NCBI GenBank assembly: GCA_001767525.1 | Contig: MELF01000020.1 | Coordinates: 147,742-187,657 of the forward strand | Length of the DNA: 39,916 bases | From: Acidobacteria bacterium RIFCSPLOWO2_12_FULL_68_19 | Lineage (GTDB): Bacteria > Acidobacteriota > Vicinamibacteria > Vicinamibacterales > UBA2999 | Reading direction: 5' to 3' | Shown: positions 32,654 through 39,330 of the stretch, piece by piece | How the letters are laid out: every line of letters begins with the position of its first letter | Numbering within the stretch: the stretch's first letter is position 1 | The notes under the pieces: model-generated | Databases searched by the model: none | What the model was told of the DNA's origin: nothing | Seen by the model: only the letters and a program-made list of their open reading frames with translations | Made by a program: the position numbers and the translations under genes

Positions 32654-34042
32654 ATGGCCGAACGCAGAAAGACGATTCTCGTGGTCGACGACGATGAAGG
32701 GATGCGCGAGACGCTGACGGCGCTGCTCAAGCGCGACTACCGCGTGCTCCGCGCGGCCACCGGCGAGGCCGCCCTGCAGATGATGGAAAAGGAAGACGTC
32801 GATCTGATGCTGCTCGACGTCCGCCTGCCGGGGATCAACGGCTTCGAGGTCCTGAAGATCACCAAGGAGAACTACCCCTACGTCGAGGTCATCGTGATCT
32901 CGGTGGTGAAGGAGCTCGAGGCCGCCATCGAGGCGATGCGCTGCGGCGCCTATCACTACATCTCCAAGGACTGGGACCTCGAGGGGGTGCGGACGCTCGT
33001 CGGCAACGCGAGCGAGCGGCAGGACCTGAGCCGCCACGTGATGCAACTGCGCGCCGAAGTGGCCGAGCAGTTCGAGCGCGAGTTCGTCGTCGGGCCGAGC
33101 CGCGCGACCCGCGACGTGATCGAGACGGCCAAGAAGGTCGCCAGGCTGTCGGCCACCGTCCTCATCCTCGGCGAGAGCGGTACCGGCAAGGAACTGCTGG
33201 CGCGCATGATTCACCGCGAGTCGGGCGCGCCCGAGGCGCCGTTTGTCGCCGTCAACCTGGCGGCGATCCCCCGGGAGCTGGTCGAGAGCACGCTGTTCGG
33301 CCACGAGAAGGGCGCCTTCACGGGCGCCATCAGGCAGCAGCTCGGCAAGTTCGAGCTCGCCAGCGGCGGCACCCTTTTTCTCGACGAGGTGGGCGACCTC
33401 CGGTACGAGCTGCAGGCCAAGCTGCTGCGTGCGCTCCAGGAAAGTGAAATCGAACGGGTGGGGGGGACCCATCCCATCAAGACCGACTTCCGCCTCATTG
33501 CCGCCACCAATACCGACGTGGAAAAGGCGGTCAAGGAAGGAACCTTCCGCGAGGACCTCTATTACCGCCTGAGGGTCATCCCGCTCAAGATGCCGGCGCT
33601 GCGCGACCGGATCGAGGACCTGCCGAATCTGGTGACCTTCTTCCTGCGACGCTACAACCTCAAGTTCCACAAGAACATCCAGGGCGTCGCCGATTCGACG
33701 CTGCGCATCCTCGGCGCCTACTGGTGGCCCGGCAACATCCGCGAGCTCGAAAACCTCGTCGAGCGGGTCGTGGCGGTTTCCGACAAGGACTGGGTCAACG
33801 ACGAGGACCTTCCGTACGAATTCCACGTGGCGCAGCTCGATGCACAGGAGCCGGCGTCGGACAACCTGCTCGAACGGGCCCTGTCGACCTTCGAGCGGAA
33901 CTTCATCATCCGGGCGCTCGAAAAGGCCGGGTGGAACGTCACGGCGACCGCGCGGGCGCTCGGGATCCCGCTCAGCACGCTGAAGTTCAAGATGGACCGC
34001 CTCGAAATCCGGGAGCTCGCTCGCAAGATTCGCGGCACGTAA
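32654..34042 (+). CDS. NtrC-family sigma-54-dependent response regulator
   Basis: A 462-residue activator. Receiver (1-125) with D12-D13, phospho-acceptor Asp55 (LLDVRLPG) and Lys105; AAA+ domain (about 145-375) with Walker A GESGTGKE (173-180), the sigma-54 contact loop GAFTGA (220-225), Walker B LFLDE (241-245) and the arginine-finger region FREDLYYRLRV; Fis-type helix-turn-helix (about 425-457, VTATARALGIPLSTLKFKM). All parts needed for phosphorylation-controlled sigma-54 activation are intact. It stands before the radical SAM gene, whose upstream region has a sigma-54 element; the likely partner kinase is at 37582. Confidence 0.95.
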   Translation: MAERRKTILVVDDDEGMRETLTALLKRDYRVLRAATGEAALQMMEKEDVDLMLLDVRLPGINGFEVLKITKENYPYVEVIVISVVKELEAAIEAMRCGAYHYISKDWDLEGVRTLVGNASERQDLSRHVMQLRAEVAEQFEREFVVGPSRATRDVIETAKKVARLSATVLILGESGTGKELLARMIHRESGAPEAPFVAVNLAAIPRELVESTLFGHEKGAFTGAIRQQLGKFELASGGTLFLDEVGDLRYELQAKLLRALQESEIERVGGTHPIKTDFRLIAATNTDVEKAVKEGTFREDLYYRLRVIPLKMPALRDRIEDLPNLVTFFLRRYNLKFHKNIQGVADSTLRILGAYWWPGNIRELENLVERVVAVSDKDWVNDEDLPYEFHVAQLDAQEPASDNLLERALSTFERNFIIRALEKAGWNVTATARALGIPLSTLKFKMDRLEIRELARKIRGT

Positions 34043-34298: not shown

Positions 34299-34314
34299 CG
34301 GCACGGCCGTTGCC
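34299..34314 (+). promoter_or_regulatory. Sigma-54 promoter (-24/-12) of the radical SAM operon
   Basis: The sequence CGGCACG, GCCG, TTGCC matches the consensus TGGCACG-N4-TTGCA at all positions but the first and last. The invariant GG (34300-34301) and GC (34312-34313) are exactly 10 bases apart. Transcription would start near 34325, giving a leader of about 60 bases before the ATG at 34385. The gene just upstream encodes a sigma-54 activator. Confidence 0.75.
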
Positions 34315-34384: not shown

Positions 34385-35830
34385 ATGCATCTGTCGAAGT
34401 TCAACGTCCAGGTCCCGCTGCCGGAACGGAACGAAGTGTTCCTGATGAACACGTTCTCCGATGCGCAACTGCTCGCGCCTGCCGGCCTCACCGGCCTGCT
34501 CGACCGGATCGCCCGAGGTGAGTCCGCCTTCACCGCCCAGGAGCACGAGACAGTCGACACGCTGCTCGACAACGGCTTCCTCGTCCAGAGCCCCGAGGAG
34601 GAACGCGCTGCACTGGACCTGTACTTCCGGGACCTGCGCGAGGACACCGGACAGCTCCGGGTGACCGTGCTGACGACGCTGCAGTGCAACTTCGCCTGCG
34701 AGTACTGCTTCCAGGGCGATCACGGCGACCACAACAAGTTCGCCGAGAAGATGTCGCTCGAGACCGCGGCGCGCGTCGTCGACTGGATCGCGGGCCGGCT
34801 GGACGAGGTACGCCCCGAGAAGTTCGTCCTGACGTTGTTCGGCGGCGAGCCGCTCCTGAACCTGCCGGTCGCCTACGACCTCGCCGAGCGCTGCCAGCGT
34901 GAATGCGAAAGGCGCGGGGTGCGCCAGATCATCAGCCTCATCACCAACGGCCTGCTGCTCACCCCCGAGGTGGTCGATCGGTTGACGCCGTACGGCCTGT
35001 CCGGCGTCAAGATCACGCTCGACGGCGATCGCGAGACGCACAACCGCATGCGGCCGCTGCGCGGCCGGCAGGGGACGTTCGATCGCATCATCGAGAACGT
35101 GCGGCGGGTCGCCGACAAGGTGGCGGTCACGATCGGCGGCAACTTCGACGAGTCGTCGGCCGACAGCTATCCGGCGCTCCTCGACTTCCTGCGCGAGCAG
35201 GATTTCGCCGGCAAGATCGCCAAGGTCAACTTCAAGCCGGTCATCAAGCCGTTCGACCAGGCCGCAGCGCCGAAAGGCGTCATCCCGCTCACCGTTGTCG
35301 GGGACGGTGGAAAGCCGCTCAACGGCACGTGCATGACGACCGCAGGCGCCGGAGCGCTCACCGGCTCGGGCGTATGCGATTCGTGCCACTTCGCCGACGA
35401 GAAGATGGCCTTCCTGCGCAGCGAGACGCGGAAGCGCGGGTTCCCGACGCCCGACGGCGTGCACATGGGCCCGTGCGAGATTCACCGGCGTCACGCCCAC
35501 ACGATCGGTCCCGACGGCTCGCTCTACGCGTGCCCCGGGTTCACTGGGTCCAAGACCGAATCGACCGGGCACATCGAGTGGCGCGCGGAAGAGTGGCGGG
35601 CGGCCGCGGCCGCCCGGTTCGAGCGCCTCAGTCCAAGGAAGGATGAGTGCGCCGACTGTTCCTTCGTTCCCGTGTGCGGCGGCGGCTGCTCCGTCGCGGC
35701 ACACACCGAGCTTGGCGACATGCATCGGCCGTCATGTCACAAGGGTGCGTTCGAGTCGGCTGTGTTCAGCCTGGCCGAGCGCACCGCAACCGAGGTGGCT
35801 GTGGGCGCTGGGCCCCAGGCTTTCGGCTAG
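34385..35830 (+). CDS. Radical SAM/SPASM peptide maturase
   Basis: A 481-residue enzyme expected to make a carbon-based cross-link in a small peptide. N-terminal region (1-90; FNVQVPLPERNEVFLMNTFS) resembles the peptide-recognition segment of SPASM maturases. The radical SAM barrel has CNFACEYC (Cys101, 105, 108) for the 4Fe-4S cluster, FGGEPLLN (152-159) and ITNGLLL. Extra cysteines at 316, 331 and 334 precede a SPASM domain with Cys364, 383, 422, 425, 431, 435 and 451 (CADCSFVPVCGGGC), enough for two auxiliary clusters. ATG 34385 has a weak AAAGAG site. The last residues (VAVGAGPQAFG) are encoded by heptamer repeats. The 32-residue peptide gene 79 bp downstream is its likely substrate. I cannot assign it to a named maturase subfamily. 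Confidence 0.93.
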   Translation: MHLSKFNVQVPLPERNEVFLMNTFSDAQLLAPAGLTGLLDRIARGESAFTAQEHETVDTLLDNGFLVQSPEEERAALDLYFRDLREDTGQLRVTVLTTLQCNFACEYCFQGDHGDHNKFAEKMSLETAARVVDWIAGRLDEVRPEKFVLTLFGGEPLLNLPVAYDLAERCQRECERRGVRQIISLITNGLLLTPEVVDRLTPYGLSGVKITLDGDRETHNRMRPLRGRQGTFDRIIENVRRVADKVAVTIGGNFDESSADSYPALLDFLREQDFAGKIAKVNFKPVIKPFDQAAAPKGVIPLTVVGDGGKPLNGTCMTTAGAGALTGSGVCDSCHFADEKMAFLRSETRKRGFPTPDGVHMGPCEIHRRHAHTIGPDGSLYACPGFTGSKTESTGHIEWRAEEWRAAAAARFERLSPRKDECADCSFVPVCGGGCSVAAHTELGDMHRPSCHKGAFESAVFSLAERTATEVAVGAGPQAFG

Positions 35831-35873
35831 GCGTTCCGTAGCCCGAAGCCCAAGGTCCAAAGCCCAAGGTCAG
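35801..35873. repeat. Heptamer array and imperfect hairpin between maturase and peptide gene
   Basis: A 7-bp period runs from the 3' end of the maturase (GTGGGCG, CTGGGCC, CCAGGCT, TTCGGCT) into the gap, where it continues in inverted form (TAGCCCG, AAGCCCA, AGGTCCA, AAGCCCA, AGGTCAG). The two halves can pair: 35818-35829 with 35839-35850 over 10 of 12 positions, loop 9. The hairpin may set the ratio of maturase to peptide mRNA. Confidence 0.65.
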
Positions 35874-35895
35874 GTCATCGGCCATTCACCAGAAA

Positions 35896-35902
35896 AGAGG
35901 AG
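35896..35902 (+). promoter_or_regulatory. Strong ribosome binding site of the peptide gene
   Basis: AGAGGAG with a 7-base spacer before the ATG at 35910. It is the best Shine-Dalgarno in the region and supports translation of the short ORF at a high level. Confidence 0.75.
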
Positions 35903-35909
35903 TACACTC

Positions 35910-36008
35910 ATGAAGATTACCGTCATCAAGAAGGCCTCGACGCAAGCGAAGCCGCAGAACTTTTGCCCGTGGATTCAGGAGGACGAAGCACCGCAGGAGA
36001 AGAAGTAG
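35910..36008 (+). CDS. Putative RiPP precursor peptide, 32 residues
   Basis: A short ORF with ATG, strong ribosome binding site and a hairpin terminator after it, directly behind a SPASM maturase. The product starts MKITVIKKAS, continues with a Lys/Gln/Pro stretch, then the core-like NFCPWIQ (res 17-23) and an acidic-to-basic tail EDEAPQEKK. It has one Cys (19), one Trp (21) and one Phe (18) clustered around Pro20, good candidates for a thioether or aromatic cross-link. No GG leader cleavage site and no transporter or protease gene is seen. Recognition as precursor rests on position, size and composition; I cannot match it to a named family. Confidence 0.8.
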   Translation: MKITVIKKASTQAKPQNFCPWIQEDEAPQEKK

Positions 36009-36048
36009 AGCGCCTGCTCGGGGCTTCGCCCCCCTCCTCCGTTCGTAG

Positions 36049-36091
36049 ACGCCGCACCGCCTTGCGGGTTTGGTGCGGCGTTATTCTTTTA
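36049..36091 (+). terminator. Hairpin terminator after the peptide gene
   Basis: ACGCCGCACC (36049-36058) pairs with GGTGCGGCGT (36072-36081), 10 bp with a 13-base loop, followed by the T-rich TTATTCTTTT. A smaller hairpin (GGGGC-TTC-GCCCC, 36020-36032) precedes it. It would end most transcripts after the peptide gene and lower expression of the downstream binding protein and kinase. It overlaps the presumed start of the binding protein. Confidence 0.7.
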
Positions 36092-37585
36092 GCGGCGCTT
36101 CACGCGTGCACCCCGTCCGACCCGCCGAGTTCTCCCGGCGGTCGCGTGCTCACGATCGGGAGCCCTGAAAGCGGTGTCAGTCGCGGTGACCCAGGCATCG
36201 GTTCGCTGAGCTTCTCGACACTCGAAGGACTCACGCAAGTCGCCGTCAGCATCGACGGCCGCGCCTTACCCCGCCTGGCGGAAAGCTGGAGCTGGGAGAA
36301 CGGAGGAAGGCGTATCCGCCTCCAGCTGCGCGCCGGCGTGACGTTTCACGATGGCACGCCCTTCACATCGACGGTCGCTGCGCAGGCTCTGCGACGGAGA
36401 ATGGAGCAGCCTGGTAATCTTGCGCTGTACCCGTCCCTTGGCGACGTCGCGGAGATCCGGCCCGAAGGTGATCTCCAGCTCGTTCTCGAGCTGTCTCAGC
36501 CGTCGGCGTTCCTGCCCGAGGAGCTCGACCTGCCGATCGCCATCGGGCCCGGCAACACCGTCGGAACCGGACCCTTCAGGCTCGTGAGCCGGGATTCGTC
36601 GAGCATCGTCCTCGAGCGCTTCGACCGCTACTACCTGGGGGCACCGCACGTCGAGCAGATTGTCGTTCGCCCGTTCAACACTCTGCGCACCGCATGGACC
36701 AGTCTGCTTCGAGGCGAGGTGGACATGGTGACCGACGTGCCATCCGAAGCCGTCGACTTCATTCGGAACGACGACGTTCAGGTGATTCCGTTCGCGCGAA
36801 GCTATCAATTCCTCATTGCATTCAATTCGCAGAAGCCGCCGTTCACATCCTCCGCCGTGCGACGCGCCCTGAACGTCGCGGTCGATCGGGAGGCGTTGAC
36901 TGCCACGGTACTGCAGGGACAGGGGCAGACGTCTACGGGACCGCTCTGGCCCCGGCACTGGGCCTACGATTCGTCGATCGTCCCGTACAGCTACGACCCG
37001 CAGTTCGCGGTGACGCTCCTCGACGGCGCCGGATTCCCCCTGAGGACGAGGTCGCGAACACCTGACCGTCCGCCGTCGCGTCTGCGGTTCGCGTGTCTCC
37101 TTCCTGAAGGGTTCAGCTTGCTTGAACGAATCGGCCTTGAAATCCAGAGGCAACTGTACGACATCGGCGTCGACATGCAGTTCGATGTGGTGCCAGCGCA
37201 GGAGTTCGACGCACGCATGCGCGACGGCCGCTTCGAGGCGGCGCTCGTCGACATGATCAGCGGCCCGACGCTCGCGCGGCCTCACATCTTCTGGGGCTCG
37301 CCTCGCCGCGAGGGGCTGCATGCCTTTGGATACCAGAATCCTGAAGCAACTCGCCTGTTCGAACTGCTGCGTGCCTCGACGAACGAGGCCGCCATTCGCT
37401 CAGCCGTCGGCCGCCTGCAGCGCGTCCTGCTGGACGACCCGCCCGCCCTGTTCCTCGCCTGGAACCAGCGGGCGCGCGCCGTCAGCAGCCGGTTTCGCGT
37501 CCCGAACGAGCCCGGGCGCGATCCCCTGTTGACGATCCGGCAGTGGACCGAGAATACCGATAGCCCGCGCGTCTCGACGCAGTGA
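36062..37585 (+). CDS. Oligopeptide-binding lipoprotein (SBP_bac_5 family)
   Basis: About 507 residues. A short signal peptide ends in the lipobox LHAC, so it is probably lipid-anchored outside the inner membrane. The family 5 solute-binding fold is seen in LEGLTQV, LAESWSWENGGRRIRLQLRAG, VTFHDGTPFT, GTGPFRLVSRD, RYYLGAPHVEQIVVRPF and FTSSAVRRALNVAVDREAL. Ligands are typically peptides or nickel. No permease or ATPase gene is near, so a sensing role is likely. The start is unclear: TTG 36062 lies in the loop of the terminator hairpin; GTG 35969 or TTG 35963 would add an RRRR-containing stretch but overlap the peptide gene. Its stop overlaps the kinase GTG. Confidence 0.85.
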   Translation: MRVWCGVILLAALHACTPSDPPSSPGGRVLTIGSPESGVSRGDPGIGSLSFSTLEGLTQVAVSIDGRALPRLAESWSWENGGRRIRLQLRAGVTFHDGTPFTSTVAAQALRRRMEQPGNLALYPSLGDVAEIRPEGDLQLVLELSQPSAFLPEELDLPIAIGPGNTVGTGPFRLVSRDSSSIVLERFDRYYLGAPHVEQIVVRPFNTLRTAWTSLLRGEVDMVTDVPSEAVDFIRNDDVQVIPFARSYQFLIAFNSQKPPFTSSAVRRALNVAVDREALTATVLQGQGQTSTGPLWPRHWAYDSSIVPYSYDPQFAVTLLDGAGFPLRTRSRTPDRPPSRLRFACLLPEGFSLLERIGLEIQRQLYDIGVDMQFDVVPAQEFDARMRDGRFEAALVDMISGPTLARPHIFWGSPRREGLHAFGYQNPEATRLFELLRASTNEAAIRSAVGRLQRVLLDDPPALFLAWNQRARAVSSRFRVPNEPGRDPLLTIRQWTENTDSPRVSTQ

Positions 37586-39330
37586 AGAAGATCACCACAC
37601 GATTCGCGCTGCTCCTCGCGGCCGCCGCCGTGCTGCCGCTCCTCGCGTACGGCGTCGTGTCCATCGTCTCGCTCACGAGGGGCGCGCAGCAGGCGGTCAT
37701 CGCCGGCAACCTGAACGTCGCAAGCCAGGTGGCCGAACAAATCGACCTATACGTGAACGGCAGCGTGAAGATCCTGAGAGCCGTCGCCGCCGATCTGCAG
37801 CGCACCGGCCTCGAGCGGTGGCAGCAGGACCGCATCCTCAAAAATTTCGTGCTGCAGTTCCGCGAATTCAGGGAACTGACACTGCTCGACGAGAACGGCG
37901 CCGCCCTCGTCACCAGCCGCCTTGGCAAGCCGACGGCGATCGTCCCGGGTTCGGAAGGGGTCGCCATCAACGGCGTCCTGATGTCGCGCTTCTCCCTCGA
38001 CGACGATCTGTTGCCCACCGCCGATGTCGCTGTGCGTCTGGACGAGCGGGACGGCGGCGGCTGGCTCGTCGGCCGCCTCAACCTGGAAGAGCTGTGGCGC
38101 ATGGTCGACGGCATCCGGGTTGGCGAGACCGGCTACGCCCTCGTCGTGACCCGCGAAGGCCAGCTCCTGGCGCACGGCGACCCGGCGGCGAAGTCGCAGG
38201 TCGCGCGCGGCGATAACCTGAGCACGCATCCGCTCGTGGCCCGCATCGATGCCGTGGCGCCCGCCGCGCGCGTGGCTTCGGCGGAATACGACGGCGACCG
38301 CGGACAGATGGTCGGCGTGGCGGCGCACCTGCCGTCGCTCGGCTGGACGGTCGTGGTGGAGCAGCCCCGGGCCGAGGCTTTTGCCATTCCCATCCGTCTC
38401 CAGTGGCAGCTTGCAATTGCGATTGCCGCCGCGCTGATGATGATGCTCGGCGTCGGATACGTCTGGGGGTACCGCTTCCTCGACCCGATCCTCGCGCTGA
38501 CGCGCGGGACCAGGGCGCTGGCCGAAGGACGGCTGGACGCGCGGGTGAAGGTCACCTCGAAAGACGAGATCGGGCAGTTGGCGTCCGCCTTCAACAACAT
38601 GGCGGACAAGCTCGTCGAGCTGCAGGAGGACGTGCGCAAGAAGGAACGGCAGGCGCTCTTCGGCCGCGTCTCGATCGGGCTGGTGCACGACCTCTCGCAC
38701 CCGATCCAGAACATCGGCAACAGCTGCAAGCTGATGGTGAAGATGTTCGACGACCCGGAGTACCGCGACACGTTCAAGCGGACGATCGAGCGCGAGCTGG
38801 CCCAGGTCAAACGGGTGCTCGACGACCTGCGGAACGTGGCGCGGCCGATCCCGCTGCAGCGCTTCCCGCTCGATCTGAACAAGACGCTCGCCGAGCTCGT
38901 CGAGTCGATGCAGCCGACGGCCGAGCGGTCCGGCCTGAGGATCGAGACGGAATTCGTGTTCGGGCCGCTCTACATCGAAGGCGATCAGTTCGCCCTCAAC
39001 CGCGTGTACCGCAATCTGGTGATGAACGCGATGCAGGCCACGCCGCCGCGAGGCCGCGTCGTCGTCCGCACGCGGCGCGAGGACGACCACGCCGTCGTCG
39101 AAGTGGAGGATACGGGCTGCGGAATTCCGCGGGAGCGCCTGGCGACGATCTTCGAGGATTTCGTCACGACCAAGCGGCGCGGCCTCGGTCTCGGCCTCGC
39201 GATTGCCAAGAAGACCGTCGAGCAGCTGGACGGCGCCATCGCCGTCACGAGCGACGTCGGCGTCGGAAGCACGTTCACGCTGCGGTTCCCGCTCACCCCG
39301 GCGCGCCCCTCGCGCCTGGCGGCCGTCTGA
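37582..39330 (+). CDS. Membrane sensor histidine kinase with extracytoplasmic Cache-like domain
   Basis: A 582-residue kinase. Membrane helix 1 (about 7-31), periplasmic sensor (32-270) with a Cache-like pattern (LTLLDENGAALVTSRLG, GETGYALVVTREGQLLAH), helix 2 (275-298), HAMP (300-352, ending KDEIGQLASAFNNMADKL), dimerisation helix with His369 in GLVHDLSHPIQN, and ATPase domain with NLVMNAMQA (478-486), DTGCGIP (510-516) and GLGLGLA (534-540). GTG 37582 overlaps the stop of the binding lipoprotein, so both are made together. It has no receiver; the nearest response regulator is the sigma-54 activator at 32654. NtrB-like kinases of this form commonly pair with such activators. Confidence 0.92.
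   Translation: MKKITTRFALLLAAAAVLPLLAYGVVSIVSLTRGAQQAVIAGNLNVASQVAEQIDLYVNGSVKILRAVAADLQRTGLERWQQDRILKNFVLQFREFRELTLLDENGAALVTSRLGKPTAIVPGSEGVAINGVLMSRFSLDDDLLPTADVAVRLDERDGGGWLVGRLNLEELWRMVDGIRVGETGYALVVTREGQLLAHGDPAAKSQVARGDNLSTHPLVARIDAVAPAARVASAEYDGDRGQMVGVAAHLPSLGWTVVVEQPRAEAFAIPIRLQWQLAIAIAAALMMMLGVGYVWGYRFLDPILALTRGTRALAEGRLDARVKVTSKDEIGQLASAFNNMADKLVELQEDVRKKERQALFGRVSIGLVHDLSHPIQNIGNSCKLMVKMFDDPEYRDTFKRTIERELAQVKRVLDDLRNVARPIPLQRFPLDLNKTLAELVESMQPTAERSGLRIETEFVFGPLYIEGDQFALNRVYRNLVMNAMQATPPRGRVVVRTRREDDHAVVEVEDTGCGIPRERLATIFEDFVTTKRRGLGLGLAIAKKTVEQLDGAIAVTSDVGVGSTFTLRFPLTPARPSRLAAV

Follow-up and report, generated by a model that had tools for sequence, protein, structure and literature searches.

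The window analyzed here, i.e., the whole stretch of 39,916 nucleotides taken from contig MELF01000020.1, contains a run of genes and signals that all lie on the same strand and that, as argued below, seem to belong together (positions are those of the window):

32654..34042, + strand, NtrC-type (sigma-54) response regulator with Response_reg, Sigma54_activat and HTH_8 domains, the probable output of the circuit
34299..34314, + strand, -24/-12 promoter-like element CGGCACGGCCGTTGCC, 10 of 12 consensus letters, upstream of the maturase gene
34385..35830, + strand, radical SAM/SPASM peptide maturase (PF04055) with a putative RRE-like N-terminal domain
35895..35902, + strand, Shine-Dalgarno-like AAGAGGAG, separated by 7 nt from the ATG at 35910, with similar sites in relatives
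35910..36008, + strand, type A precursor peptide gene, 32 aa, MKITVIKKASTQAKPQNFCPWIQEDEAPQEKK, from the ATG at 35910 to the TAG ending at 36008
36048..36092, + strand, predicted intrinsic terminator or attenuator between the precursor and binding-protein genes
36062..37585, + strand, family-5 solute-binding lipoprotein (PF00496, E 8e-61), TTG at 36062 assumed, start codon uncertain
37582..39330, + strand, dCache-HAMP sensor histidine kinase (PF02743, PF00672, PF02518), overlapping the stop codon of the binding-protein gene

As translated, the peptide begins with a leader, MKITVIKK, and carries a single Cys (Cys19) with an acid, Glu24, at Cys+5; there is no Gly-Gly within it, and none of the Pfam and NCBIfam models matches it. 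A longer alternative frame of 121 aa, opening at 35643, also runs through the ORF, and the start at 35910 is favored over the one at 35643 because of the Shine-Dalgarno-like site, which agrees with the ribosome binding site of the original prediction, and because of the conservation described below. The terminator claimed in that prediction is borne out as well: positions 36048-36092 can form a GC-rich hairpin of 12 paired bases (G-T allowed; -25.2 kcal/mol) with a T-rich tail, which a simple scanner had passed over because of its loop limit of 8, and a dedicated scan returned a comparable hairpin with a T-rich tail in 12 of 14 hand-picked loci, 13 of which are from the window's family. No sigma-70 site was returned by a simple scan. 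Between the maturase stop and the precursor Shine-Dalgarno, a 12-base direct repeat, AAGCCCAAGGTC, occupies positions 35846-35857 and 35860-35871.

Counting the window, 67 maturase loci were available (the other 66 having been taken from 65 genomes of the class), five of which (L061, L083, L094, L105 and L140) end at or just past the maturase and were dropped, and an intact precursor relative is found 3' of the maturase in 60 of the 62 loci that are usable on that side (59 of 61 without the window), while the pooled pairwise dN/dS, calculated on 24 codons from 10 close rows with the window among them, amounts to 0.18. Taken together, these two results make the ORF more than a chance one, and neither the lack of a conserved peptide at homologous loci nor neutral change within it, named in advance as grounds for giving up the proposed 32-residue precursor, was seen. 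That the frame might be untranslated, or have arisen by chance, is scarcely credible in view of this conservation and selection, the Shine-Dalgarno and the terminator, and we consider 35910-36008 to be almost certainly a real RiPP precursor gene; the suggestion of a precursor peptide, made for the radical-SAM enzyme directly upstream, is supported as well.

The maturase was present in 66 of the 193 genomes of the class, window's included, and an even sample of the phylum gave matches in 18 of 396 genomes, again including the window's, all 18 of them in the window's order, which we take from the gp6 titles to be Vicinamibacterales; within the genomes searched, the RiPP family is found only in that order. 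A scan of genome contigs returned 12 close maturase relatives (L002-L013), 11 of them labelled Acidobacteria, some gp6, and one (L003) labelled Acidimicrobiia, and the peptide lies within about 400 bases 3' of the maturase in 11 of the 12. The one without it, L006, is on the same contig as L057, from which the precursor has been cleanly deleted, and in L085 it is broken by two stops; both L057 and L085 still have the maturase and the regulator, as well as the beginning of the binding-protein gene, and both contigs stop before the kinase. A profile search of the genomes of these two loci for another precursor copy returned none, although it was a weak search, the precursor known from G189 having escaped it as well. 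Two oddities of copy number may be mentioned here: one assembly (G142) holds two different maturase loci, L053 and L061, which points to either a paralogue or contamination, and in L079 (6787-7374), the Cys-type precursor is present as four near-identical tandem copies, with the Shine-Dalgarno sites repeated.

What is conserved within the peptide is not quite what had been expected from the window. Among the 55 Cys-bearing (“type A”) copies compared (one per locus, retrieved with a profile built from 14 peptides that all have a Cys, so that Cys-less types would be under-found), the Cys is present in 55/55, Pro at +1 in 44/55, Trp at +2 in 32/55 (Trp or Phe in 42/55), Phe at -1 in 21/55 (Phe or Tyr in 34/55) and Asp or Glu at +5 in 50/55, with mostly hydrophobic residues at +3 and +4 and with one Cys per copy in 51/55 and two in 4/55. 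The leader pattern MKI-V-KK is conserved too, and five copies found later all have the Cys and the acid at +5; the exceptions at +5 are the five f10 loci (L073, L086, L096, L098 and L108), which have A, S, T or C in place of the acid. The original prediction, which had named a Phe-Cys-Pro-Trp core and had proposed looking for a conserved xFCPWx downstream of homologous maturases, was therefore right about a conserved Cys peptide at that place and wrong about the core, as Phe and Trp vary while the acid at +5 is retained: the conserved core consists of a lone Cys together with hydrophobic residues and, at Cys+5, Asp or Glu. With such frequencies, Phe -1 and Trp +2 are unlikely to be obligatory ring partners.

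A second kind of precursor, without any Cys (“type B”), was overlooked in the original prediction. It was found in 12 copies in 10 of 60 fetched loci, mostly 5' of the type A gene, and later in one more:

downstream of the maturase, type B precursor genes in L065, L066, L068, L072, L076, L078, L079, L082, L087, L097 and L138

Its core reads P[WF]LVD, in which L-V-D is seen in all 12 copies, and since P-W or P-F was demanded by the search pattern, P[WF] is fixed by selection of the copies and L-V-D is not. Type B is possibly a second ligand or the substrate of a different modification, and the two precursor types may mean two ligands in some lineages.

As for the enzyme, its best NCBIfam match is TIGR04280 (246.9 bits), and membership of this geopeptide maturase family was rejected on account of the cut-off of 400, which was exceeded in 0 of 60 genomes of the phylum. 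The PapB model matches at 7e-38 and the DynA model at 2.5e-22. In the predicted model of the maturase (mean pLDDT 74), strands at 7-12, 17-22 and 27-32 together with three helices make up an N-terminal domain that we read as RRE-like, and no Pfam RRE model matches the protein; the C-terminal Cys set is conserved, and the best Foldseek hits of the model are 5why/5wgg, titled as a thioether-forming enzyme, which we take to be CteB. These features (PF04055, the Cys set, the fold match and an RRE from the model) are those of the SPASM-type radical SAM maturases with an RRE that are asked of ranthipeptide systems, as are the invariant Cys and the nearby conserved acceptor, D/E at +5, outside the f10 loci. 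According to PMC9413430, PapB joins Cys-Xn-Asp for n = 0-6 and takes Glu too. The conserved Cys and acid, the PapB match, the Cys-Xn-Asp range and the 5why/5wgg fold together make a Cys-X4-Asp/Glu thioether, i.e., Cys19-Glu24 in the window, the best guess from the sequences, one that could well turn out either way; that the maturase ties the peptide into a ring is probable, and the single ring originally proposed is consistent with the data in so far as at most one Cys-based ring is supported.

Such a thioether is, however, impossible for the Cys-less precursors of 11 loci, and both type B and the f10 loci misfit a universal Cys-acid link, which is why a link between Trp and Asp, or some other function for the acid, should be considered possible. 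In one such arrangement, the Cys and the +5 acid would be left unjoined, the acid would be a protease site, the product would be a short X-P-W-hydrophobic-hydrophobic peptide, like that of AgrD-type autoinducers with their C-X4-acid pattern, and the maturase would make some other change, e.g., a Trp-Asp cyclophane between W+2 and D+5. The retention of P[WF]LVD without a Cys in type B speaks for it, as do the W+2/D+5 spacing, which equals the Trp-x-x-Asn spacing of dynobactin, the DynA match and the AgrD models, which match 1/14 and 2/14 members (0.054 and 0.074). We nevertheless find this arrangement quite unlikely, given that the Cys of type A is invariant whereas Trp +2 is not, that the AgrD matches are at chance level and that no AgrB match was found in the genome.

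Several named peptide classes were likewise tried and put aside. Sactipeptides, with their alpha-carbon thioethers, have several Cys residues, to which the Cys counts given above do not conform; an AgrD autoinducer is not indicated, as the window peptide matches no such model and the genome contains no AgrB match; methanobactin models matched 3/14 precursors in Pfam (best E 0.03) and 1/14 in NCBIfam (0.22), i.e., at chance level across the 14 members. A double-Gly peptide exported by a C39 peptidase does not fit either, as the peptide lacks a GG and PF03412 finds no match in the genome, in agreement with the earlier remark that a double-Gly leader is lacking.

The remaining genes of the unit, i.e., the binding protein, the kinase and the regulator, as well as the sigma-54-type promoter, had also escaped the original prediction. 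Almost all loci of sufficient length share one gene order, regulator, maturase, peptide, binding protein, kinase and HU, with the regulator 5' of the maturase (some 3 kb off in L099). The binding protein has a lipobox-like LHAC; the lipobox pattern fits 38 of 53 binding proteins, a count to be read with uncertain start codons and several spurious-looking hits in mind, and several of those outside the pattern do have a Cys after a hydrophobic stretch. Its nearest solved chains are AppA (titled oligopeptide-binding), AgaA and NikA, and its best NCBIfam matches are nickel-type binding proteins, under their cut-offs. Immunity, export and uptake-permease genes are all lacking from the block, and so the absence of an export gene noted originally stands, as far as the block is concerned.

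To judge by sequence, the maturase, peptide, binding protein and kinase have been inherited as a block. The class includes 127 genomes in which no maturase match was obtained; 35 of these were chosen, 22 of them near-complete, and a kinase match was found in 3 and a binding-protein match in 1 of the 35 (0 of the 22 near-complete genomes for both); two of the three kinase matches are found where a contig begins, so that the other block genes have possibly been cut off. The third, L120, is probably a relic in which a partial kinase is found beside a 47-residue piece of the regulator and the remainder is missing. A regulator match was present in 14 of the 35, and at all 14 places fetched, HU directly follows the regulator and the four-gene block is missing. 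These 14 block-less rows fall in two places of the regulator tree, a clade of 13 and L122 inside the window's family, implying at least two changes, and the simplest reading is that of an old block, mainly inherited vertically and lost at least twice. We regard it as very probable that the peptide and sensor genes form one functional unit.

The regulators left behind are informative in this respect. Out of 61 loci with the block, 55 provided a regulator for comparison, six being cut or missing, and the receivers of these were compared with those of the 14 without it, which represent two losses and not 14 independent events. The second Asp of the DDD motif is kept in 53/55 with the block (the exceptions being L062 and L099) and lost in 14/14 without; the phosphorylatable Asp is kept in 55/55 and lost in 2/14; the third Asp of DDD is lost in 7/14 block-less regulators, all 14 of which retain the first Asp as well as the Lys. 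Compared with the window's receiver, 13 of the 14 block-less ones show an identity of 0.41-0.53 and L122 one of 0.74 (mean with the block 0.67), and the AAA+ and DNA-binding domains of the block-less regulators are at 0.71-0.86 (means with the block 0.76 and 0.73). Receiver decay where the module has been lost supports a kinase-regulator pairing beyond gene order alone, and the two do look like a pair. The block-less regulators themselves (L121-L134), in which the AAA+ and DNA-binding domains are kept and the receiver is altered, may act on other targets without phosphorylation.

The sigma-54 consensus reads TGGCACG-N4-TTGCW, and when at least 9 of its 12 letters were demanded, with GG and GC fixed, a -24/-12-type site preceded the maturase gene in 54 of the 61 regions, with 4.9 expected from letter shuffles; two of the seven regions without one have under 40 bases of sequence, and five have enough. 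A -24/-12 site and a neighboring activator, the attributes of a sigma-54 operon with an NtrC-type activator, are thus both recognizable.

A selected and conserved peptide, inheritance as a block, a recurrent promoter-like site and receivers that have decayed without the kinase are what the sequences show, and from these we infer the following course of events. The RRE-like domain at the N-terminus of the maturase would bind the leader (MKITVIKK...), and the enzyme would make one cross-link in the core, most likely the thioether from Cys19 to the Glu24 side chain; the modified peptide would leave the cytoplasm and be captured by the family-5 lipoprotein, which would signal its presence to the dCache kinase; the kinase would phosphorylate the adjacent NtrC-type regulator, and this, in turn, would fire the -24/-12 promoter from which maturase, peptide, binding protein and kinase would be transcribed as an operon. 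The peptide would therefore induce its own synthesis, with the terminator after the precursor gene providing for much peptide and little receptor. As a whole, i.e., a radical-SAM RiPP, a ring, a loop of binding protein, kinase and regulator, and self-induction, this is the best explanation we can offer, and a tentative one that falls a little short of an even call; autoinduction of the peptide operon, taken by itself, is possible and should be read with slightly more reserve. Several points speak against an autoinducing RiPP circuit: the absence of an exporter in the block and of any C39 peptidase or AgrB match in the genome, the two loci without an intact precursor (L057 and L085), the f10 loci without the +5 acid, the Cys-less precursors in 11 loci, the five promoter regions of adequate length without a -24/-12-type site, the fall of the binding protein-core correlation under the saturation-matched controls given below, and the receiver result, which stands for two losses and in which the first Asp and Lys survive in 14/14 and the phosphorylatable Asp in 12/14.

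The binding protein and kinase could, on the other hand, sense an outside cue (a nutrient peptide, a metal complex or a competitor's product), the peptide being the output, e.g., an antimicrobial or effector, in which case the block would serve inducible defence or nutrition and would not be a signal loop. The block, promoter and receiver data fit such an arrangement just as well, family-5 binding proteins have many ligands (cf. the nearest chains AppA, AgaA and NikA), and in L057 and L085 the maturase, regulator and binding protein persist although the peptide gene is lost or broken. Of four proteins compared, the binding protein diverges most (mean distance 0.63 vs. 0.30-0.46), as would be expected if its ligand varied like the core, which speaks weakly against an outside cue; no clear coevolution with the core is seen, however. 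Across 42 of the 55 loci (the 13 without all four proteins were left out), binding-protein and core distances gave a partial r of 0.325 beyond the maturase, regulator and kinase in a naive test, and controls matched for saturation lowered this to 0.14-0.17, or to 0.06-0.09 in the rank version (p 0.13-0.03), similar to the saturation-matched values of the maturase and kinase against the core (0.14 and 0.12). The lack of immunity, export and uptake-permease genes in the block is a further point against an outside cue, the sensing of which we hold to be a serious contender, albeit a rather doubtful one.

Still another role for the binding protein would be the recapture of a metallophore- or cofactor-like matured peptide, with the kinase monitoring it, towards which the weak methanobactin matches (3/14 Pfam, 1/14 NCBIfam) and the nickel-type proteins among the sub-cut-off matches of the binding protein could be taken to point. 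This is improbable, as those methanobactin matches are at chance level over the 14 members, the block contains neither a TonB receptor nor a permease, and a single Cys with few other ligands makes a poor chelator.

Should the autoinducing circuit be real, Acidobacteria would gain a testable peptide signal, RiPP maturases would be linked to binding-protein-dependent sensing, and the peptide may be a chemical signal that switches on its own production; the single-Cys X4 core and its Cys-less sister peptides pose a clean enzyme-chemistry question of their own. Most known cases of peptide autoinduction and of RiPPs under quorum control come from Gram-positive bacteria, and the titles and abstract starts searched contained no description of this RiPP family or circuit, which, as subscription journals were mostly outside the scope of the search, is no proof of absence in print. 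What may be at hand, tentatively, is a RiPP pheromone in Acidobacteriota: a ring-bearing secreted peptide, a lipoprotein co-receptor of a kinase and NtrC/sigma-54 feedback on its own operon.

Parts of this arrangement are familiar from elsewhere. The geopeptide maturases of TIGR04280 are the best-scoring family, yet the match is under the cut-off and no NCBIfam model describes the window precursor; dynobactin (DynA) shares the W+2/D+5 spacing and a model match, and differs in that the Trp is not conserved in type A. In lantibiotic autoinduction (NisRK/SpaRK) and in Agr, the peptide gene is likewise found beside its own sensor kinase and regulator, whereas the window has radical-SAM chemistry, a binding-protein partner, a sigma-54-type regulator and an autoinduction that is putative. 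A periplasmic binding protein reports to a sensor kinase in LuxP-LuxQ and ChvE-VirA; here, the neighbors of a family-5 lipoprotein gene are a dCache kinase gene and a RiPP locus, and the interaction is a putative one. The ranthipeptides of PapA/PapB and CteB share with the window system a radical SAM/SPASM maturase, the 5why/5wgg fold and a Cys-Xn-Asp/Glu motif inside the range reported for PapB (PMC9413430), and it departs from them in having one Cys and not several, the X4 spacing, Cys-less sister precursors and a link to a sensor circuit. Finally, the streptococcal RaS-RiPPs under Rgg/SHP control are also radical-SAM RiPPs tied to peptide quorum sensing (PMC13361665); they are Gram-positive systems in which short hydrophobic peptides, together with Rgg, control the locus, whereas here this part would fall to an NtrC-type regulator with its kinase and a binding protein.
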